NCBI GenBank assembly: GCA_013286655.1
Contig: JABDFG010000006.1
Span: forward strand, 1-64,000
Source: Bacteroidota bacterium
GTDB lineage: Bacteria; Bacteroidota; Bacteroidia; JABDFU01
Reading direction: 5' to 3'
DNA length: 64,000 nucleotides
The notes beneath the pieces are model-generated. The model searched no databases. It saw only the letters and a list, made by a program, of their open reading frames with translations, and was not told where the DNA came from. Of this stretch, positions 12,682-42,420 are shown in pieces. A program made the translations under genes and the position numbers. How positions within the stretch are numbered: position 1 is the first letter of the stretch; every line of letters starts with the position of its first letter.

Positions 12682-12731
12682 TTAATTAGCTAATTCACGA
12701 ATTGGCTAATTAACAAATTGGCTAATTAGTT
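12682..12731. repeat. AATTGGCTAATT-type repeat between convergent genes
   Basis: TTAATTAGCTAATTcacgAATTGGCTAATTaacaAATTGGCTAATTAG read directly; palindromic units. Confidence 0.8.
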
Positions 12732-13451
12732 CCTTAATACAAAATTCTGGCCGAGGTATACCTTCCGCACCTGCTCGTTATTAGCGAGCTCCTCCGCAGT
12801 TCCGGCCATAAGTATAGAACCTTCAAAGAGAAGGTAAGCCCTGTCAGTAATACTCAATGTTTCATGAACATTATGATCCGTAATTAAAATGCCGATATTT
12901 TTTGCCTTCAATTTATGGACAACAATTTGAATATCCTCCACTGCAATAGGGTCGACACCCGCAAAAGGCTCATCCAGCAAAATAAACTTAGGATCAACAG
13001 CCAGGCAGCGGGCAATCTCGGTTCTTCTGCGCTCGCCGCCCGAAAGCCGGTCCCCGGTATTTTTCCGGATATGTTGGAGCCCAAACTCATCCAGCAAAGA
13101 CTCAAGTTTTTCCGCTTGCTGCACCTTCGAGAGCTTGGTAAATTCCAGGATCGCCTTAATATTATCCTCTACACTCAATTTTCTGAATACAGAAGCCTCC
13201 TGGGGTAAATATCCTATTCCCATTTGCGCACGCTTATACATGGGAAGATCAGTAATGTCAGTAGTATCCAGAAAAATCTTGCCCGCGTTTGGTTTAATCA
13301 TTCCCACGATCATATAGAAAGAAGTAGTCTTTCCGGCCCCGTTAGGCCCCAGTAACCCCACAATCTCTCCCTGATTTACCTGTACCGATACATCCTTGGC
13401 AACAGTCCGGTTCTTGTATTTTTTGAGCAGATTATCAGTCCTTAAAAGCAT
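12726..13451 (-). CDS. lptB: LPS export ABC transporter ATP-binding protein
   Basis: Walker [35 protein letters not shown] typical of LptB. Confidence 0.92.
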
Positions 13452-13470: not shown

Positions 13471-13497
13471 TAATCCCTAATCCCTAATCCTCCCTAA
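13471..13497. repeat. CCCTAAT heptamer repeat
   Basis: TAATCCCTAATCCCTAATCCTCCCTAA. Confidence 0.75.
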
Positions 13498-19068: not shown

Positions 19069-19134
19069 AAATACTAAGCGAAGCGAAGTATTCATGAACT
19101 CCGATAAAACTAAACAGACGAGGTGAGTAATAGC
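19069..19134 (+). repeat. 66-bp intergenic repeat, copy 1
   Basis: AAATACTAAGCGAAGCGAAGTATTCATGAACTCCGATAAAACTAAACAGACGAGGTGAGTAATAGC; identical to 39222..39287. Confidence 0.95.
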
Positions 19135-20481: not shown

Positions 20482-21117
20482 TTAATTGACTAAATCAGAA
20501 ATTTTCGAATGAATTTTAGGAAATTCATTCAGTGGATCCTTACTTTCCCATACCGCGCCCAACAGAGCTGCCCCTGAAAACCCGAGCTCTTTTGTTAAGG
20601 AAACATTCAAAGCATTAACTCCCCCCAGCGCAATAACCTTGGGTAATATCCGATGCTCCTGGTTCCAAAGCTGAAAACGTTCCAGTAACAACTTTCGATC
20701 AAAGGCACTGGAGTATCCGGGTTTACTGATACTGTCAAAAACAGGACCCAGGAAAACATACTCAAAGGGATAAACATTTTTTTCAAGTTCCTCCAATGAA
20801 TGAAAAGAAGCCGAAATTATTTTTTGTGACGGGAACTCAAGCTCAATAGCTTTAATGAGTATTTTTTTCTCCTCATTCAGATGAATTCCCTTCAGCCGGT
20901 ATTTTGAAGCCAGCTGAAAATGAGAATGAATAACTATCCGATGATAAAATCGGACAGGAATAGATTGGATGTAGTCATCCAGTTGTTTCTCATTCCAGTC
21001 CGGTTTACGCAAATGAAAACAATCAAGCCCACGATCAAAAAGTTGGGAAACCAGTTCGGTTTCATGATCAATTGAATATTCAGGAGATACTATGATTAGC
21101 CTAAACAATACACCCAT
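20482..21117 (-). CDS. Divergent thiamine phosphate synthase/TenI-like protein
   Basis: TIM-barrel TenI-like: GLDCFHLRKPDW..RIVIHSHFQLASKYRLKGIHLNEE..YVFLGPVFDSISKPGY..IALGGV. Confidence 0.8.
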   Translation of the reverse strand: MGVLFRLIIVSPEYSIDHETELVSQLFDRGLDCFHLRKPDWNEKQLDDYIQSIPVRFYHRIVIHSHFQLASKYRLKGIHLNEEKKILIKAIELEFPSQKIISASFHSLEELEKNVYPFEYVFLGPVFDSISKPGYSSAFDRKLLLERFQLWNQEHRILPKVIALGGVNALNVSLTKELGFSGAALLGAVWESKDPLNEFPKIHSKISDLVN

Positions 21118-21130
21118 TATTTATTTTTCC

Positions 21131-21196
21131 TGTTTCCCTATTGGCTATTGGCTACTCGCTATTGCCTATTCACTCAATCTCAATTCCCAATTCCTT
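21131..21196. repeat. Heptamer repeat CCCTATTGGCTATTGGCTACTCGCTATTGCC
   Basis: Direct reading; 7-nt period. Confidence 0.85.
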
Positions 21197-21799
21197 ATAC
21201 TTATTCACATACTCCATGAACACCCCGACAGGATCATTCCCGTCCCAGATATCACTGCGTATGGCAAGACCACGAAATCCGATTTCTTTAACCTTGCTGA
21301 TATGCTGCACCCCGATACCTCCGCGGGCGATAACATGATAGCGCGATTTTTCCAGAACCCCCTTTAAACTATGTTCTGTAAAACCCGCCTGGTATTTCGA
21401 GGTTGAGCTGTCGAAGATCGGACTCAGAAAAACATAGCTATATTCTTTAAAAGATTCAACAATACTTCCAAGCTTAGTATAAGAGGTAGAAGTGATAAAT
21501 GCTGACCTGCGGGATTTGAGTAGTTTAAGTATGAACCAGGTTTGGAACTTTCTTTTTTTGTGTTTCTTGGTAAGATGGATCCCTTTCAGATTAAATTTCA
21601 AAAGAAGTTTATGATGAGAATGTACGATGATACGGTTATGATATTCGGCTGGGATCTTTTTTATTAGTTCCGTAAGTTTTGGAGTAGAATATTTGGGTTT
21701 ACTAAGATGCAGTGTTTGTAATCCATTTTCAAAAAAAACAGTAAAGATGTTCTCTTCATTTATAATCGTTTTAGCGGATGAAATGACGATCAGTTTCAT
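21170..21799 (-). CDS. Second divergent ThiE/TenI-like protein
   Basis: GLQTLHLSKPKY..RIIVHSHHKLLLKFNLKGIHL..YVFLSPIFDSSTSKYQ..IARGGI; paralogue of the neighbouring CDS. Confidence 0.78.
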   Translation of the reverse strand: MKLIVISSAKTIINEENIFTVFFENGLQTLHLSKPKYSTPKLTELIKKIPAEYHNRIIVHSHHKLLLKFNLKGIHLTKKHKKRKFQTWFILKLLKSRRSAFITSTSYTKLGSIVESFKEYSYVFLSPIFDSSTSKYQAGFTEHSLKGVLEKSRYHVIARGGIGVQHISKVKEIGFRGLAIRSDIWDGNDPVGVFMEYVNKYKELGIEIE

Positions 21800-23322: not shown

Positions 23323-24642
23323 ATGGCAAATACAGCGACAACAAAATACACCAAGTATAAAGTAAAAGATATAGGTTTGGCCGAATGGGGTCGCAAAGAA
23401 ATTAAGTTAGCAGAACAGGAAATGCCTGGTTTAATGGCACTCCGGGAGGAGTTTGGACCCCAAAAGCCACTCAAGGGCGCGCGAATAGCGGGCTGTTTAC
23501 ACATGACCATTCAGACAGCCGTTTTGATCGAGACATTAGTCGAATTAGGTGCAGAAGTTACCTGGTCTTCCTGTAACATATTCTCAACACAAGATCATGC
23601 CGCGGCCGCCATAGCCGCTGCAGGAATACCCGTATACGCCTGGAAAGGTATGAATGCAGAAGAATTCGATTGGTGCATCGAACAAACCATTTTCTTTGGA
23701 GAAAACAGAAACCCTTTAAACATGATTCTGGACGACGGAGGAGATTTAACCAATATGGTACTCGACCAATATCCCGAGCTCGTCAAAGGCATCAAAGGAA
23801 TTTCCGAAGAAACGACAACAGGGGTGCTACGTCTGCATGAGCGCATGACGAAAGGAACACTTCCGCTTCCGGCTATTAACGTAAATGATTCCGTTACCAA
23901 ATCTAAGTTTGACAATAAATATGGATGCCGCGAGTCCTTGGTAGATGCAATTCGCAGGGCCACGGATCTTATGCTGGCTGGAAAAGTCGCCGTAGTCGCC
24001 GGGTACGGAGATGTAGGAAAAGGATCGGCAGAATCATTAAAAGATTCCAAAGTGCGCGTGATCGTTACCGAAATAGATCCTATTTGTGCATTACAGGCAG
24101 CAATGGAAGGCTATGAAGTCAGGAAGATGGACGATGCGGTAAAAGAAGCGGACATTGTGGTAACAGCCACAGGCAATTTCAATATCATAACAGACCGTCA
24201 TTTCAAAGCAATGAAGCACAATGCGGTAGTATGTAATATTGGTCATTTCGACAACGAAATAGACATGGCCTGGTTAAACAAAAATTACGGTTCCACGAAG
24301 GATACCATCAAACCACAGGTCGATAAATATACAATTGACGGTAAAGACATCATCGTATTGGCAGAAGGTCGTTTGGTAAATTTAGGCTGTGCAATGGGAC
24401 ATCCCTCTTTTGTCATGAGCAATTCCTTCACCAATCAAACACTGGCACAATTAGAACTGTGGACAAATCCCGGCAAATACGAAAACAAAGTATATACTTT
24501 GCCAAAGCAACTGGATGAAAAAGTAGCCCGCCTGCACCTGAAAAAAGTGGGAGTTGAGATCGATACACTAACAGACGTTCAGGCTAAATACATCGGCGTT
24601 CAAAAGAGTGGACCGTTTAAGAATGACAGCTATAGATATTAG
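23323..24642 (+). CDS. ahcY: Adenosylhomocysteinase
   Basis: Full-length [63 protein letters not shown]. Confidence 0.98.
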
Positions 24643-24643
24643 G

Positions 24644-24731
24644 TAATAGCGAATAGCCAATAGTTAATAGTTAATAGTTAATAGGGAAAGTATTCAATAG
24701 GATAACCTCCCAATTCCCTATTCGCTAGTTA
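24644..24731. repeat. Heptamer (AATAGNN) repeat plus inverted arm, between convergent genes
   Basis: TAATAGCGAATAGCCAATAGTTAATAGTTAATAGTTAATAGGG ... CCAATTCCCTATTCGCTAG. Confidence 0.9.
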
Positions 24732-25236: not shown

Positions 25237-25563
25237 TTGATTAAAAAAATGAAGAAAACGTATAAACAAATAGTATTCTTAATTCTGTTTTCCGTTCCCT
25301 TTTTTGCGTTTTCCCAGGAAGCAGCCGCCAAAAAAGATCAGAAAGAAGAACCCAAAAGCAGCTGGGCGCAGCGGAGAGAAGCCAAAAAACAGTGGAGAGA
25401 GCAGCGGAAAAATGAGCGGGAAGAAAAAAAGAAAATAAAAGACCACGACAAGCGACTTCAGACAAAAAAAGTATTACGCAGAATGAAGAAGGATAAACGA
25501 GAGGCCGAGCGCAGGAATGAAAACAAACGCGAATTTTTCCTTAAACGCTGGTTCTCCAAATAA
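25237..25563 (+). CDS. Small exported Lys/Arg/Glu-rich protein
   Basis: Signal peptide then highly charged KKQWREQRKNEREEKKKIK.. sequence; stop overlaps next start. Confidence 0.65.
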   Translation: MIKKMKKTYKQIVFLILFSVPFFAFSQEAAAKKDQKEEPKSSWAQRREAKKQWREQRKNEREEKKKIKDHDKRLQTKKVLRRMKKDKREAERRNENKREFFLKRWFSK

Positions 25564-28547
25564 TGCGTAAACACTCGCTCTATTTGCTACTCGTTGTTGG
25601 CTATTCGCTAATTATTCAAACAATAGTATTTTCTCAATCTTACTTCTTCCGCAATTATTCAGTTGACAACGGTCTGCCCTTTGTACAGGTATCAGCAATA
25701 TACCAGGACAGCAAAGGTAATCTCTGGACCGGAGGGTATGGAGGACTCAGTAAGTTCGATGGCACCTTTAAAAATTACGGACCTAAAAACGGACTGATCC
25801 ATCATTCCGTTACCTGTATTACAGAGGACAAACAAGGAAGTATCTGGATAGGAACGATCAAAGGAATAAGCAGACTCGAAAAAGGGAAGTTCACATCCTA
25901 TACCACAAAAGAAGGCCTCTCGGATAATAACATACGAGCCTGTTTAACCGACAGGGAAGGAAATGAATGGTTTGCGACAGGAAACGGGCTTACAAAATAC
26001 AACGGCAGAAGATTTGAAATAATCACAACAGAAAATGGATTACCGTCGAACGACATAATCTCCGTTTACCAGGATTCCTTGGGGATAATGTGGTTCGGAA
26101 CCTCCAGGGGTTTGAGTTCCTGCTCGGGTAAAAAAATCACAAACTATACAACTCTGAATGGTTTGCCCGGTAATTATATCCAGAGCATTACCGGAGACAA
26201 GCACGGCAACCTCTGGGTAGGAACCAATAACGGATTAAGTATTTTCAACAAAACCAAGTTCGAAAATTATTTCACAGAAAACGGTCTGCCCGATAATAAT
26301 ATCAATGTAGTTCGGATGGATGCCAGGAATAACATGTGGGTAGGAACCAATAAAGGCCTTTGTAAAGTACTGAATAAGGAAGGTGCGATCTTCTTTAAGA
26401 AATACCACTTATCAGACGTATCCAATAGCCGGATCATAAATAGTATGACTTCCGACTACGAAGGCAATTTTTGGGTAGGCACCCACAATGGATTATACCG
26501 TTACCGGGCGGATGTATTTGCGTTGTATTCAGAAAAAGAAGGCTTGCAAAACACGTTTATTTATCAGATCCTGCGGGATAAAAATAAAAATCTTTTTGTA
26601 GGCACCCAGGGCGGTGGTTTTTATTTATACGATGGCAGCAATTTTTCAAACTTCAGCACGAAAGAAGGCTTATGTGACAATACCATAAACGCTGCAGTTC
26701 TTGATAAAGAGAATAGGTTATGGATAGGAACAAACAAAGGTCTCAGCAGGTTTGACGGACGTGCTTTTCAAAATTACAGCAGAAAAGATGGCCTTTCCTG
26801 TGATTCAGTAACCGCTGTTTTTATAGACGATAAGGGAGTTCTCTGGTTGGGCGGTAAAAACAGTATCACCCTTTACGATGGCAAAAAATTCAAAAAGCTG
26901 CTCCTGCCGGAATCCGGTGAAAGCGCAGGTGTTTGGGCCATTATGGAGGATCAAAACAAAACGATCTGGATAGGAACCTATCTTGGAGGTTTATATAAAT
27001 ATGAGCAGGGGAAAATGATAGCGTGTTCAGCTCAAACCGGGATCAACAGCAATTCTGTGCTGAGTATTGTACAAAACAAAACAGGAGATTTGTTTTTCGG
27101 AACACTGGATGGAGTGTTTATGCTTTCACCTGCAGTTGGGGGAGTTCCGGCCATGCCGGCAATACATTTCGATGAATCGGATGGTATGAGTTCCGATCTG
27201 GTATATGTCGTATTACTCGATGATAAAGGCTTTTTATGGGCAGGCACCAACCAGGGGATTAATAAAATAAATATCACTGAATTTAAAAAGAATGGGAAAA
27301 AAATCGTTGAACCTTACACAAAAGAAGATGGTTTTCAAGGTGTAGAATGCAATAGCAATGGTGCTTTCAAAGATTCCGACGGTGCCCTTTGGTTCGGCAC
27401 CGTCAACGGGTTAATAAAATACTTACCCGCCGAAGATATCGAAAACACCCTCGAACCCAGAACCACGATCACCTCCATCACATTAGCGGAACACGATACA
27501 TTGCTTCCCGACTTCTGTAAGTTACCCTACGATTTAAATACCATAACATTTAAATTCATTGGTATTTGCCTCAGCAATCCCTATAAAGTTCATTACCAGT
27601 ATAAACTGGAGGGTATTGATAAGCAATGGTCTGCAGTCACTACCGAAAATTTTATAAAATATTCAGGCCTGCCTCCGGGGAACTATCAATTTAAAGTAAT
27701 CAGTTCCAACAACGAAAATGTCTGGAATAAAACACCCCTTGTTTTTTCATTTTTCATTACACCCCCTTTCTGGAAAACGGCCTGGTTTCGCATTTTGACT
27801 ACGGTTGGAGTAACGGGCCTGGTTTTTTTATTTATCTATTACCGTGTGAACCAGGTGCGTGTCAAAGAACGTCAAAGGTCCGACTTGCAAAAACGAATTG
27901 CCGGCATCGAACTATTAGGTTTAAGGTACCAGATGAATCCTCATTTTATTTTCAATACGATGAGTTCCATACAGCATTACATCTCCAATAACGAACCAGA
28001 TGCAGCCTTAAAATACCTGAGCCGTTTTGCAAAATTGATGCGGGCGATTATGGAAAACTCCAAGCAGTCCACCATCACAGTAAAAGTGGAGCTCGATACC
28101 TTAAAACTATACCTGGAACTGGAAAGTATGCGCTTTGCCGGTAAATTCGAATACACTTTCCGCATTGACCCTAAGATAGACGTCAATTACGAAGAAATTC
28201 CCTCTATGCTGATCCAGCCCTATGTCGAAAATGCCATCATACATGGCCTCTTGCCCAAAGCAAAAAACGGAAAGCTATTTATTGATTTAACTAAAAATGA
28301 TAATTTCATCATTTGTACCATTGAAGATGATGGAATAGGGAGGAGTAAGGCAGAAGAACTGAATAAGAGCAGGGTAAGTCAGCATCGCTCGTTGGGTATG
28401 TCCATAACAAAAGAGCGATTATCCATACTCAATCATATTAACAGCAACAATAACAGCTTAAGTGAAAAAATAACGGACCTTTTTGACGAAAAAGGAAACC
28501 CTGCAGGAACAAGAGTAGTCATTTATATACCTTTGGAAATCACCTGA
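25563..28547 (+). CDS. Two-component-regulator-propeller sensor histidine kinase (LytS-type)
   Basis: Many LWIGTNKGLSRFDG..NYSRKDGL propeller repeats, Y_Y_Y-like domain, TM, LRYQMNPHFIFNTMSSIQHYI. Confidence 0.93.
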   Translation: MRKHSLYLLLVVGYSLIIQTIVFSQSYFFRNYSVDNGLPFVQVSAIYQDSKGNLWTGGYGGLSKFDGTFKNYGPKNGLIHHSVTCITEDKQGSIWIGTIKGISRLEKGKFTSYTTKEGLSDNNIRACLTDREGNEWFATGNGLTKYNGRRFEIITTENGLPSNDIISVYQDSLGIMWFGTSRGLSSCSGKKITNYTTLNGLPGNYIQSITGDKHGNLWVGTNNGLSIFNKTKFENYFTENGLPDNNINVVRMDARNNMWVGTNKGLCKVLNKEGAIFFKKYHLSDVSNSRIINSMTSDYEGNFWVGTHNGLYRYRADVFALYSEKEGLQNTFIYQILRDKNKNLFVGTQGGGFYLYDGSNFSNFSTKEGLCDNTINAAVLDKENRLWIGTNKGLSRFDGRAFQNYSRKDGLSCDSVTAVFIDDKGVLWLGGKNSITLYDGKKFKKLLLPESGESAGVWAIMEDQNKTIWIGTYLGGLYKYEQGKMIACSAQTGINSNSVLSIVQNKTGDLFFGTLDGVFMLSPAVGGVPAMPAIHFDESDGMSSDLVYVVLLDDKGFLWAGTNQGINKINITEFKKNGKKIVEPYTKEDGFQGVECNSNGAFKDSDGALWFGTVNGLIKYLPAEDIENTLEPRTTITSITLAEHDTLLPDFCKLPYDLNTITFKFIGICLSNPYKVHYQYKLEGIDKQWSAVTTENFIKYSGLPPGNYQFKVISSNNENVWNKTPLVFSFFITPPFWKTAWFRILTTVGVTGLVFLFIYYRVNQVRVKERQRSDLQKRIAGIELLGLRYQMNPHFIFNTMSSIQHYISNNEPDAALKYLSRFAKLMRAIMENSKQSTITVKVELDTLKLYLELESMRFAGKFEYTFRIDPKIDVNYEEIPSMLIQPYVENAIIHGLLPKAKNGKLFIDLTKNDNFIICTIEDDGIGRSKAEELNKSRVSQHRSLGMSITKERLSILNHINSNNNSLSEKITDLFDEKGNPAGTRVVIYIPLEIT
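25573..25617. repeat. Heptamer-period sequence within the signal-peptide coding region
   Basis: TATTTGC TACTCGT TGTTGGC TATTCGC TAATTAT. Confidence 0.75.
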
Positions 28548-38653: not shown

Positions 38654-39127
38654 ATGTCACAGATTTCATATTTCACCGAAGAAGGCTTGAAAAAGCTGAA
38701 AGACGAACTTCATCACCTGGAAGCAGTAGAACGCCCCTCCATCTCCCGGCAAATTGCAGAAGCCAGGGACAAGGGAGATCTCTCCGAAAATGCAGAATAC
38801 GATGCAGCCAAAGAAGCACAAGGTTTGCTGGAATTGAAAATATCCAAGATGAAAGAGCTGGTAAGCAATGCCCGCATTCTGGATGAAACCCAGATAGACA
38901 ACTCCAAAGTATTCATTCGTTCAAAGGTCAAAATAAAGAACCTGAAAAACGATGCCACTATGCAGTACATACTGGTAGCTGAAAGCGAAGCCAACCTGAA
39001 AGAAGGAAAAATATCAGTCGACTCACCCATAGGAAAAGGCCTCTTGGGGAAAAAAGTAGGAGAGAAAGCCGAAATCAAAACTCCCGCCGGAAGCGTGAAA
39101 TTTGAAATAGTGAATATTTCCAGATAG
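38654..39127 (+). CDS. greA: Transcription elongation factor GreA (start trimmed from 38630)
   Basis: SYFTEEGLKKLKDELHHLEAVERPSISRQIAEARDKGDLSENAEYDAAKEAQG. Confidence 0.96.
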   Translation: MSQISYFTEEGLKKLKDELHHLEAVERPSISRQIAEARDKGDLSENAEYDAAKEAQGLLELKISKMKELVSNARILDETQIDNSKVFIRSKVKIKNLKNDATMQYILVAESEANLKEGKISVDSPIGKGLLGKKVGEKAEIKTPAGSVKFEIVNISR

Positions 39128-39156
39128 GACTTAGTTAATAGTTATTAGCGAAATGC

Positions 39157-39208
39157 AAAGCATTCATGAACCCCGATGAAATAAAAATAAAAAAGTGAGT
39201 AATAGCGA
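39157..39208 (+). repeat. Diverged copy of the 66-bp repeat
   Basis: AGCATTCATGAACCCCGATGAAATAAAAATAAAAAAGTGAGTAATAG resembles the 66-bp unit. Confidence 0.6.
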
Positions 39209-39221
39209 ATAGCCAATAGGG

Positions 39222-39287
39222 AAATACTAAGCGAAGCGAAGTATTCATGAACTCCGATAAAACTAAACAGACGAGGTGAGTAATAGC
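39222..39287 (+). repeat. 66-bp intergenic repeat, copy 2
   Basis: Identical to 19069..19134. Confidence 0.95.
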
Positions 39288-39356
39288 CATCATGCATAAT
39301 AGCATTAAAAACATATAAACCCCTAATCGCTATTGGCTAATCGCTGCCTTAATTAA

Positions 39357-39752
39357 ATGACCATTTTCACTAAAATAATCAAAGGCGAAATTCCCTCCTA
39401 TAAAATAGCAGAGACAAGAGACTACCTTGCCATTCTGGACATATTTCCATTAGCCAAAGGCCATACACTCGTCATTCCGAAAAAAGAAACAGATGATATC
39501 TTCGATCTCGGCGATCAGGAATTTTCAGGCCTGCAGCTTTTCTCCAAAAAGGTAGCCAAAGCCATTAAAAAAGCGATTCCCTGCAAGAGAATCGGAACGG
39601 CCGTCATTGGACTCGAAGTACCCCATGCACACATTCACCTGGTACCCATCAATACGATGCAGGACCTTAATTTTGAAAAACCCAAACTCAAACTTTCTGA
39701 TGTGGAGATGCAGCAAATAGCAATAGCCATACAAGAGGCCTATCAGGAATGA
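39357..39752 (+). CDS. HIT family protein
   Basis: FTKIIKGEIPSYKIAE..LAKGHTLVIPKKE..VPHAHIHLVP. Confidence 0.95.
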   Translation: MTIFTKIIKGEIPSYKIAETRDYLAILDIFPLAKGHTLVIPKKETDDIFDLGDQEFSGLQLFSKKVAKAIKKAIPCKRIGTAVIGLEVPHAHIHLVPINTMQDLNFEKPKLKLSDVEMQQIAIAIQEAYQE

Positions 39753-40423
39753 AAGCCAAAGCGGGAAATTCGGGTGTAATTTTGTCCCTTCTGTTAATCC
39801 TTCCCCTGCTATTTATTCTTTCTCTACTCTTTATTTCCTGCAACACAAATCATAAAAACGCAGATGTCTTTTCCATACCCTTAAAACATATAGGCGATCA
39901 AAACGGTCATTTCAAATCCCAAATCCTAAATCCTGAATCCCAGATCCCAAATCCTAACTCCCAATTATTCGCATCTTTTCATTTGCCACTCCAAACCTCC
40001 GTAATCATATTCCTTTCACCCAGCTGCCCCATGTGTCAAAACTATAGTCTGGTGCTAAATCAGTTAAACGATCATTACAAAGAAAAAGGAATAGCTTTTT
40101 ATGGAATATTCAGCGGACAAGAACGCGATACCTTGGAACAAAAAACATTTGCAAAAACATACAAAATAAACTTCGACTTATTGCTGGATGAAAAAAAACA
40201 ATTAGCCAATAACCTTCATGCAACAATCACTCCAGAAGTATTCCTGATAGACACGAACAAAGAAATAATATATAAGGGCAGCATTGACAACTGGCTGATC
40301 GAACCCGGAAAAAAACGAAGTATTGTTACCGAACATTATTTAGAAGATGCTTTATGGGCCGTCACCTCAGGAAACAAAATAAAAATATCCTCTACGGAAG
40401 CAAAGGGCTGTTTAATAGAATAA
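39749..40423 (+). CDS. Redoxin/thioredoxin-like lipoprotein
   Basis: Lipobox LLFISC; FLSPSCPMCQNYSLVLNQL active-site motif. Confidence 0.8.
   Translation: MKAKAGNSGVILSLLLILPLLFILSLLFISCNTNHKNADVFSIPLKHIGDQNGHFKSQILNPESQIPNPNSQLFASFHLPLQTSVIIFLSPSCPMCQNYSLVLNQLNDHYKEKGIAFYGIFSGQERDTLEQKTFAKTYKINFDLLLDEKKQLANNLHATITPEVFLIDTNKEIIYKGSIDNWLIEPGKKRSIVTEHYLEDALWAVTSGNKIKISSTEAKGCLIE
39914..39966 (+). repeat. AATCCNA heptamer repeat inside the redoxin CDS
   Basis: AAATCCCAAATCCTAAATCCTGAATCCCAGATCCCAAATCCTAACTCCCAA. Confidence 0.9.
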
Positions 40424-40426
40424 TTA

Positions 40427-41818
40427 ATGAACAGGATAAATTATTTAGGATTTAGGATTATGGATTATGGATTCAGGAATTTAGGATTTTTGCTAATTGT
40501 AATTACATTCCTTTCCTGCAAACAAAAAAGTAAAGTCACCTATTCCAAAGACGTTGCTCCGATCATCTACAAAAATTGCACAAGCTGCCACCGGCCCGGT
40601 TCGGCGGGCCCCTTTCCACTTGTAAGTTATAACGACGCAGCCAAACGTTCAAAAATGATTGCGAGTATAACGAAGTCCAGGCGAATGCCACCCTGGCCGG
40701 CCGACAATACCTATACCCATTTCACGGACGAAAATGTGCTCAGTAAAGAAGAAATAAACCTCTTGCAGCAATGGGCAGAAGCAGGAGCTCCGGTGGGCGA
40801 TGCAAATCATGTACCGAAGGCACCTTCCTATACCGCTTCTATATTAGGCAAGCCCGACCTGGTCGTTAAAATGCCAGAGGCATTCAAAATCAAGGGTGAC
40901 AATACAGATCACTTCATGTTCATGAAAGTACCCTTCGAAATACCCAGGGATACCTTTGTGCGGGCCATCGAATTTGTACCCGGAAATAAGGCCTTGGTAC
41001 ATCACGTAAACGGTCATTTGATCCGTTACCAATACGATAAAAAGAAAAACGTAAATGACGGAGAAAAAATAGTTGACTCACAGGCATACCCCGTCAAAGA
41101 ACTCTATGAAAAACTGAAGTTAGCCAATGACGATGGCAGCTATCCGCTTTTAAAATCTTCCTTCGTAAATTATTTGCCGGGAGTATTGCCAACAATGTAT
41201 CCCGACGGAATAGGAGGGTTCAGTCTGAATCGGAAAAATGCAATTTTACTCAAAGACATCCACTACGGACCCTCTCCGATAGACACAACAGACCAAAGCT
41301 ATTTCAATATTTTTTTCGCAAAAGAAGCGCCCAAGCGTCCGACACTCGAAATGCAATTAGGCACCCTGGGTATATCCGAAATAATACCCCCATTGATCAT
41401 ACCTCCCAATGAAGTCAAAACTTTTTATACCCGCGCCGTTGCGCCGAGAGATATGTCTGTCCTTACGATCAATCCGCACATGCATTTACTTGGAAAAACA
41501 TTTTGGGCCTTTGCTATTACACCCAAAGGTGACACCATTCCATTAATCCGGATTCAGAAATGGGATTTTCGCTGGCAATACTTTTATACCTTCAAAAAAA
41601 TTGTCAAAATCCCCAGAGGATCCCTTATAACAGTTATTGCCACATACGACAATACCCGTAATAACCCCGAAAATCCCTTCAATCCGCCCCAATTGGTGCA
41701 GGAGCGTAATGGCAGTATGCGTACCACCGACGAAATGTTACAGTTTATCATTACGTATTTGCCCTATCAGCCCGGGGATGAGAATATAAGTTTAGCGAAG
41801 GAAGCGAATGGCGAATAG
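40427..41818 (+). CDS. Exported c-type cytochrome/copper type II ascorbate-dependent monooxygenase-like protein
   Basis: CTSCH heme-binding motif near lipobox; C-terminal LTINPHMHLLGKTFWAFA PHM-like motif. Confidence 0.75.
   Translation: MNRINYLGFRIMDYGFRNLGFLLIVITFLSCKQKSKVTYSKDVAPIIYKNCTSCHRPGSAGPFPLVSYNDAAKRSKMIASITKSRRMPPWPADNTYTHFTDENVLSKEEINLLQQWAEAGAPVGDANHVPKAPSYTASILGKPDLVVKMPEAFKIKGDNTDHFMFMKVPFEIPRDTFVRAIEFVPGNKALVHHVNGHLIRYQYDKKKNVNDGEKIVDSQAYPVKELYEKLKLANDDGSYPLLKSSFVNYLPGVLPTMYPDGIGGFSLNRKNAILLKDIHYGPSPIDTTDQSYFNIFFAKEAPKRPTLEMQLGTLGISEIIPPLIIPPNEVKTFYTRAVAPRDMSVLTINPHMHLLGKTFWAFAITPKGDTIPLIRIQKWDFRWQYFYTFKKIVKIPRGSLITVIATYDNTRNNPENPFNPPQLVQERNGSMRTTDEMLQFIITYLPYQPGDENISLAKEANGE
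40444..40490 (+). repeat. TTAGGAT heptamer repeat at the 5' end of the cytochrome/PHM-like CDS
   Basis: TTTAGGATTTAGGATTATGGATTATGGATTCAGGAATTTAGGATTTT. Confidence 0.9.
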
Positions 41819-41878
41819 CCAACAGTGAAATCCGCCGATGGCGCCCTATTGGCTAATCGCTATTCCCTATTGGCTAAT
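41803..41878. repeat. Heptamer repeats spanning both convergent gene 3' ends
   Basis: GCGAATGGCGAATAGCCAACAG ... CCCTATTGGCTAATCGCTATTCCCTATTGGCTAATT. Confidence 0.85.
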
Positions 41879-42420
41879 TTATCAGGGTTTGCACTCAAAA
41901 ACGATTTCCAGCCGGAATGCTTCTTCTCTCCGGAAGAAGAAGTTCTCTGAAAAAAATGACAGACAGCTGCCGCCAATCCATCCGTCGCATCCAGGTGTTT
42001 CGGCAATTCTGAAAAATTCAACAAGGTCTGAAGCATAGCTGCAACCTGTTCCTTCGATGCATTTCCATTTCCGGTAATAGACTGTTTGATTTTTTTAGGC
42101 GAATATTCAAAAACAGGAATATTCCTGTACAAAGCACCCGCAATAGCCACCCCCTGGGCCCTTCCTAATTTCAACATACTCTGTACGTTTTTTCCAAAAA
42201 AAGGAGCCTCGATTGCCAATTCATCCGGCTTATACTCTTCGATCAGCTGTAAAGTCCTTGAAAAAATAGCCTTCAGTTTCATCGGCTGATCCTCCAGTTT
42301 ATGAAGATGTAAAACACCAATCGCGATCAATTCAATTTTAGAACCTTTGATATGAAGGAGACCATAGCCCATGATAGTCGTGCCGGGATCAATGCCAAGT
42401 ATAACTTTGTCTGTACTCAT
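41860..42420 (-). CDS. ruvC: Holliday junction resolvase RuvC
   Basis: [42 protein letters not shown]. Confidence 0.96.

Follow-up and report, generated by a model that had tools for sequence, protein, structure and literature searches.

The degenerate heptamer array (CTATTSG)n at positions 21138–21170 (plus strand; CTATTGGCTATTGGCTACTCGCTATTGCCTATT) of the window, by which we mean the whole 64,000-nt stretch of Bacteroidota DNA analyzed here, is one of many degenerate tandem repeats with a heptanucleotide unit that are scattered across the genome. We consider it probable that such arrays arise by 7-nt tandem duplication combined with selection on the encoded peptide, and that the class supplies signal-peptide cores that are hydrophobic whatever the reading frame.

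The local array is described by TRF as 4.7 copies of a period-7 unit, CTATTGG, and it sits in the 52-bp gap separating two minus-strand ThiE-like (TMP-TENI) genes, both matching Pfam PF02581: one downstream of the array (20482–21117) and a paralogue (21170–21799; relatives L025/L026) whose stop codon touches it. A first-pass annotation had placed a heptamer repeat between these minus-strand genes at 21131–21196; the repeat is present, although that range is slightly wide. On the plus strand the array has no stop in any frame, while the gene strand reads AATAGSS / GCCAATA with TAG stops directly after the stop codon of 21170–21799, and the array is non-coding. The equivalent ThiE junction in relative L026 measures about 10 bp and is array-free. 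As to the pair itself (20482–21799), the two genes are diverged and adjacent; they are neighbours in the relative G001 and lie on separate contigs in G002, G003 and G004.

Since 7 and 3 have no common factor, a regular array is read as one cyclic heptapeptide in whichever frame, and a change in copy number would, by arithmetic, rotate the frame while leaving the kind of peptide alike. The first-pass claim that one heptapeptide is encoded in every frame is correct for pure TATTGGC (cyclic IGYWLLA on this strand), the complement of which is closed by a stop in each frame, but it does not extend to the local gene strand, which carries stops. The ORF peptides quoted in its support are not gene products; PIGYWLLAIAYSL, for example, is read from an ORF on the plus strand, opposite the ThiE genes.

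The window holds 5 period-7 segments where 0.17 are expected, and in the source genome (G000) we count 33 period-7 arrays vs. 1.7 expected over 464 kb and 53 vs. 2.0 in Markov controls over 827 kb, so the genome-wide excess of 7-nt periodicity that had been suggested as a check is clearly large. Periods of 14, 21 and 28 are likewise high in the 827 kb, with non-multiples of 7 mostly at control level apart from smaller excesses at 6, 8, 15, 16 and 18. Intergenic DNA, which makes up 12% of the genome, holds 37 of the 53 arrays. The sequence CTATTGGCTATTGGC, allowing at most one mismatch, has 44 matches in the 2.62-Mb genome vs. 0 for its reversed pattern. The assembly comprises 125 contigs and is 73% complete, the array statistics sample 1.55 of the 2.62 Mb (59%), and genes were called with our own simple caller. 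The units fall into family A (TATTSGC/AATAGSS), family B (AATCCYN/GGGATTT) and others. The relative G001 is sparser, with 4 period-7 arrays in 400 kb.

Further family-A arrays in the window are found at 24633–24684 (minus), just after the S-adenosylhomocysteinase-like gene 23323–24642 with the stop-rich strand forward with the gene, and at 41846–41871 (plus), where the array overlaps the 3' end of ruvC (41860–42420, minus) and provides both its C-terminus, KLANRE, and its stop. Another (39201–39219, minus) lies between two copies of a palindromic core element (39151–39205 and 39230–39286, both plus), and CTAATCGCTATTGGCTAATCGC (39323–39344, plus) is a family-A array upstream of the HIT gene 39357–39752; the gap 39127–39356 is 229 bp here vs. 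0 bp in G001. A core copy with flanking family-A units is also found at 19077–19133 (plus), between thiH-like and ThiF-like genes. Family-B arrays are translated within the redoxin-like lipoprotein 39749–40423 (39913–39964, plus; FKSQILNPESQIPNPNSQ) and form the n-region of the predicted lipoprotein signal peptide of 40427–41818 (40443–40473, plus; MNRINYLGFRIMDYGFRNLGFLLIVITFLSC). Degenerate family-A units at 25580–25617 (plus) lie in the predicted signal peptide (MRKHSLYLLLVVGYSLIIQTIVFSQ) of gene 25563–28547, a two-component regulator propeller/histidine kinase, a case that is weak in that it scores under the period-7 threshold. A (TAATCCC)n array occupies 13471–13490 (plus), upstream of the ABC-transporter gene 12726–13451 (minus), and a related array with an 8-nt/16-nt period (GCTAATT-like) is seen at 12683–12729 between convergent genes.

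In the 1.55 Mb sampled, predicted signal peptides derived partly from arrays or the core element were counted in at least 13 exported proteins, among them those of the window genes 25563–28547 (weak, degenerate) and 40427–41818 (family-B n-region). These signal peptides are sequence predictions and the start codons are inferred; most array-coded N-termini have no plausible in-frame start past the array, while the C39 lipoprotein does have one (the ATG before LLLFSSC). Read on the open strand, the predicted signal peptide of BamA is MERNTYPPFYSLFAIRYYSRRLFGFIGVCEYFASLRISLFFLFLITLIPLSTFAQ followed by VEL, and the array- or core-coded N-termini of a PorP/SprF protein and of a second PorP/SprF-like protein are MMNIKKFIPNYTPYWLLAIGYWLPASNPTLAQ and MNKKNRNGLIPMPYWLLAITYSLIISNPAKSQ, each followed by D. 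Further N-termini from arrays or the core are found in a TolC-type OEP, a PBP-like lipoprotein, a LysM protein and others. Arrays in coding 5' ends beyond the local site, with predicted hydrophobic N-termini resembling signal peptides, are thus present in this genome and again in G019 (discussed below), as the first-pass annotation had anticipated.

Comparison with orthologues indicates what these arrays may have replaced. BamA has ordinary short signal peptides in G002, G003, G004 and G005 (e.g., MKRLVFLFFLIPFFASSQ), an array-coded one, MSTKNKRFYLTFPPYWLIAIRYSLLLLVPLLGHSQ, in G001, and in the source genome an array plus a core element with part of the old signal-peptide core retained. The array is absent from the G001–G005 relatives of PorP/SprF. 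Judged from these sequences, the array or core seems in most cases to have lengthened or taken over a signal peptide that was already there, and not to have given a cytosolic protein a new N-terminus. The earlier suggestion that such repeats seed hydrophobic N-termini or extensions is therefore supported by replacement and extension among the BamA orthologues, but not by the site from which it was drawn, where the array is outside coding sequence and the cited ORFs are spurious.

The association with signal peptides is seen again in G019, which belongs to another family and lacks the core element. In 400 kb of this genome there are 31 period-7 arrays vs. 1.0 expected, mostly within genes and built from many different heptamers, with units varying by locus. 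Its 8 CTATTGGCTATTGGC loci are without exception within predicted signal peptides, as are those of its congeners G129, G159 and G215. Of 40 coding arrays in G019, 15 lie within the first 40 codons of their gene, where 11.7% would be expected (p = 2e-5). Of the 15 proteins with such an N-terminal array (one protein entered twice), 13 have predicted signal peptides (27% base rate, p = 2e-6) by a crude rule, which is in part circular given that the array contributes hydrophobicity of its own. Enrichment of signal peptides among array-overlapping ORFs, proposed earlier as a check, is therefore found here, subject to that circularity. One lipoprotein has an array-coded predicted signal peptide in its G019 orthologue and an ordinary one in the congeners.

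Since few residues dominate signal peptides, a hydrophobic core written with few codons could look repetitive, and the arrays might be a low-complexity artefact. Codon-block shuffles of G019 that keep the local codons give 0.2 N-terminal arrays vs. 11 seen, and 1.2 other arrays vs. 21 seen, and low-complexity chance is rejected on this basis; in G019 the remaining periods between 4 and 13 stay close to the control level, and the same heptamers are found in intergenic DNA. We regard the artefact as very improbable. It is also important to consider that the signal-peptide arrays could be phase-variation switches in which a one-unit change shifts the frame and turns export off, given that 7 is not a multiple of 3, so that a single-unit change shifts the downstream frame, and that heptamer repeats are described as slippage-prone (PMC4679880). 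Among the genomes compared (one genome per species), however, there are no out-of-frame alleles, and the degeneracy of the arrays means that slippage is lowered. BamA, moreover, is expected to be essential, and we give such switches little credence.

The same heptamer is not confined to signal peptides elsewhere in the class. It is intergenic in G191 and G365, the G091 heptamer is probably 5'-noncoding, and in G003 it lies mostly within repeat-rich surface-type proteins. In-frame heptamer arrays or core elements were also observed in large repeat-rich surface-type proteins at one variable loop after PGIDWVLY (source genome C3 70274, C4 1617, C4 5678 and C5 26839; G003 L140–L145, as inverted pairs in G003). 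Of 395 genomes in the class, 9, spanning five families, contain the exact 19-mer CTATTGGCTATTGGCTATT, and 2 contain its reversed control; period-7 arrays in general are commoner than this 19-mer (23 in 329 kb sampled from other genomes, spread over 9 of them).

A second property of the arrays is their orientation relative to genes. Among family-A arrays 26 nt or longer, all 18 have stops in 3/3 frames on the AATAG strand and in 0/3 on the opposite strand, and near 3' gene ends (within 30 nt) the stop-rich strand is forward in 27 of 29 family-A runs, or in 26 genes vs. 2 after merging runs per gene (p = 3e-6). At 5' gene ends an antisense-before-start placement is observed, 14 vs. 4. Arrays supply several stop codons, with the C-termini IANSQ, LANSQ and LANRE each followed by the stop. 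The polarity persists in arrays that start beyond the stop (16 vs. 2), which means that selection on coding overlap cannot be its whole cause.

This polarity off the coding region is what would be expected if the arrays were regulatory, acting as mRNA 3'-end or DNA protein-binding sites or as parts of terminators, and if their presence in signal peptides were incidental. A like polarity reported in Xanthomonas and Nostoc (PMC4692102) and the inverted array pairs round a spacer at several junctions would fit as well. On the other hand, many G019 arrays are inside coding sequence, the genes flanking the arrays are unrelated, G001 lacks an array at most of the junctions compared, and no Rfam family matches across 18900–42000 of the window. 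Taken together, a regulatory origin seems rather improbable. The inverted pairs round an intergenic spacer were observed at C36 11440–11644, C7 38053–38167 and C16 37826–37912 of the source genome, the first array ending in GGGG and the second starting with CCCC, and the G001 junction orthologous to C2 50586 also has inverted paired arrays. We considered such pairs as the ends of a mobile unit and rejected this, because several (though not all) consist of two arrays, either of which borders on a different gene.

The core element is a palindromic repeat of ~55 nt consisting of a variable hairpin (AATGCGAAGCATT, AATCCGCCAATGGCGGATT, AATACTAAGCGAAGCGAAGTATT), then TCATGAACNC, then GTGARTAATA. There are about 50 copies in the source genome, 15 in G005 and few elsewhere, mostly intergenic with some in frame within protein genes, and the repeat matches no Rfam family; the core model (R1) was given a hairpin of 5 pairs by hand, and a loose pattern scan for the core returned mostly noise. 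At C36 15643–15837 of the source genome four core elements follow one another head-to-tail; the unit is 51 nt long, and the copies are linked by GTGAATA. Where an array or core lies between the genes of a conserved pair, the gap is a median of 106 bp longer than in G001 (n = 7), compared with 0.5 bp for pairs without (n = 30). Not all arrays are recent, however, as paired arrays are shared by the source genome and G001 at junction C2 50586.

These observations raise the possibility that the arrays spread as, or with, a mobile core resembling Rickettsia palindromic elements, the signal-peptide cases being tolerated in-frame insertions. An array lies within 60 bp of 18 of 42 core copies (about 1% expected), the core is read antisense in the predicted signal peptide of BamA and in that of one of two paralogous surface proteins, which differ by its insertion, and core copies occur in tandem. 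Yet the G019 signal-peptide arrays occur without any core, their units vary between loci, and the majority of arrays have no core close by. No Y1 transposase (PF01797) was found in the 73%-complete genome, and with it we set aside the core as a REP with a RAYT. Spread with a mobile core is, on balance, unlikely.

We therefore return to tandem duplication with selection on the encoded peptide. Local 7-nt duplication, presumably slippage-like, would create arrays that build up mostly at gene junctions, lineage by lineage (as shown against one relative), and selection would then sort which of them stay. Directly after a stop codon, as at 21138–21170, an array with its stop-rich strand forward would be harmless or supply a stop. 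An array in a coding 5' end would be retained with its open strand read, and for the most part within a signal peptide, whose core need only be hydrophobic; there it may extend or replace the ancestral one, as judged from the orthologues of BamA, PorP/SprF and one lipoprotein. Other arrays persist in surface-protein loops. Several observations run counter to this account: the after-stop polarity (16 vs. 2) is unexplained by selection on coding overlap, one heptamer recurs in distant families where plain slippage from random sequence predicts otherwise, the arrays of G191, G365 and G091 lie outside signal peptides, and the source genome and G001 share arrays at one junction. A unique suitability of TATTGGC was considered and dropped, its hydrophobicity ranking 143 of 1612 open units. 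A bolder version, which we put forward tentatively and think somewhat less likely to hold than to fail, is that active 7-nt duplication across Bacteroidia continually supplies both frame-independent hydrophobic signal-peptide cores and opposite-strand all-frame stops, rebuilding even core envelope export signals, possibly with phase-variable export.

Heptamer repeats, their polarity and their stop/open asymmetry are already known. Beside cyanobacterial STRR, the heptameric repeats GGGAATC of Xanthomonas and GGGGA(C/T)T of Nostoc are described as in excess, sense after stops and antisense before starts (Rehm et al., 2015, PMC4692102). The arrays here share this placement (26 vs. 2 after stops, 14 vs. 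4 before starts), but family A uses other units and has no GGG tract for G-quadruplexes, and arrays here are also found in predicted signal peptides, a role not reported in the passages of PMC4692102 consulted. TAACTGA direct repeats have been published from Beggiatoaceae, cyanobacteria and five Bacteroidetes genomes (MacGregor, 2015, PMC4679880), so heptamer repeats in Bacteroidota, of which the first-pass annotation was aware of no description, have in fact been described. They resemble the present arrays in being heptamers with all-frame stops forward, an open reverse strand, overlap with gene ends and a presence in Bacteroidetes, and differ in unit (vs. CTATTGG), in their mostly forward position just upstream of start codons in Beggiatoaceae, and in a reverse peptide, LSVISYQ, for which no signal-peptide link is reported (PMC4679880). 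According to Mrazek et al. (2007), as cited in PMC4679880, 7-nt units are the most abundant long simple sequence repeat class in many genomes, with polymerase slippage proposed; coding use as signal peptides is unmentioned in that citing text. Traits of such LSSR and STRR repeats seen here are the 7-nt excess in the source genome (mainly intergenic) and in G019 (mostly coding). Rickettsia palindromic elements, small palindromes in frame in protein genes (reviewed in PMC10969869), are likened to the core by description, not sequence: some core copies are likewise in frame, but the core is about 55 nt vs. about 150, mostly intergenic and often heptamer-flanked. Our literature search, thin on subscription journals, found nothing linking heptamer arrays to signal peptides, and their recruitment in this role, as far as predicted sequences allow, appears new.

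The origin of new signal peptides is poorly documented, and a repeat with a period not divisible by three yields similar hydrophobic peptides whatever its phase. Relatives with and without the array can be compared directly, as for BamA. The finding is further relevant to how start codons are called automatically in Bacteroidota genomes and to the question of why 7-nt repeats abound in bacteria, and the predicted N-termini suggest that heptamer arrays may offer a repeat-driven route to new signal peptides.
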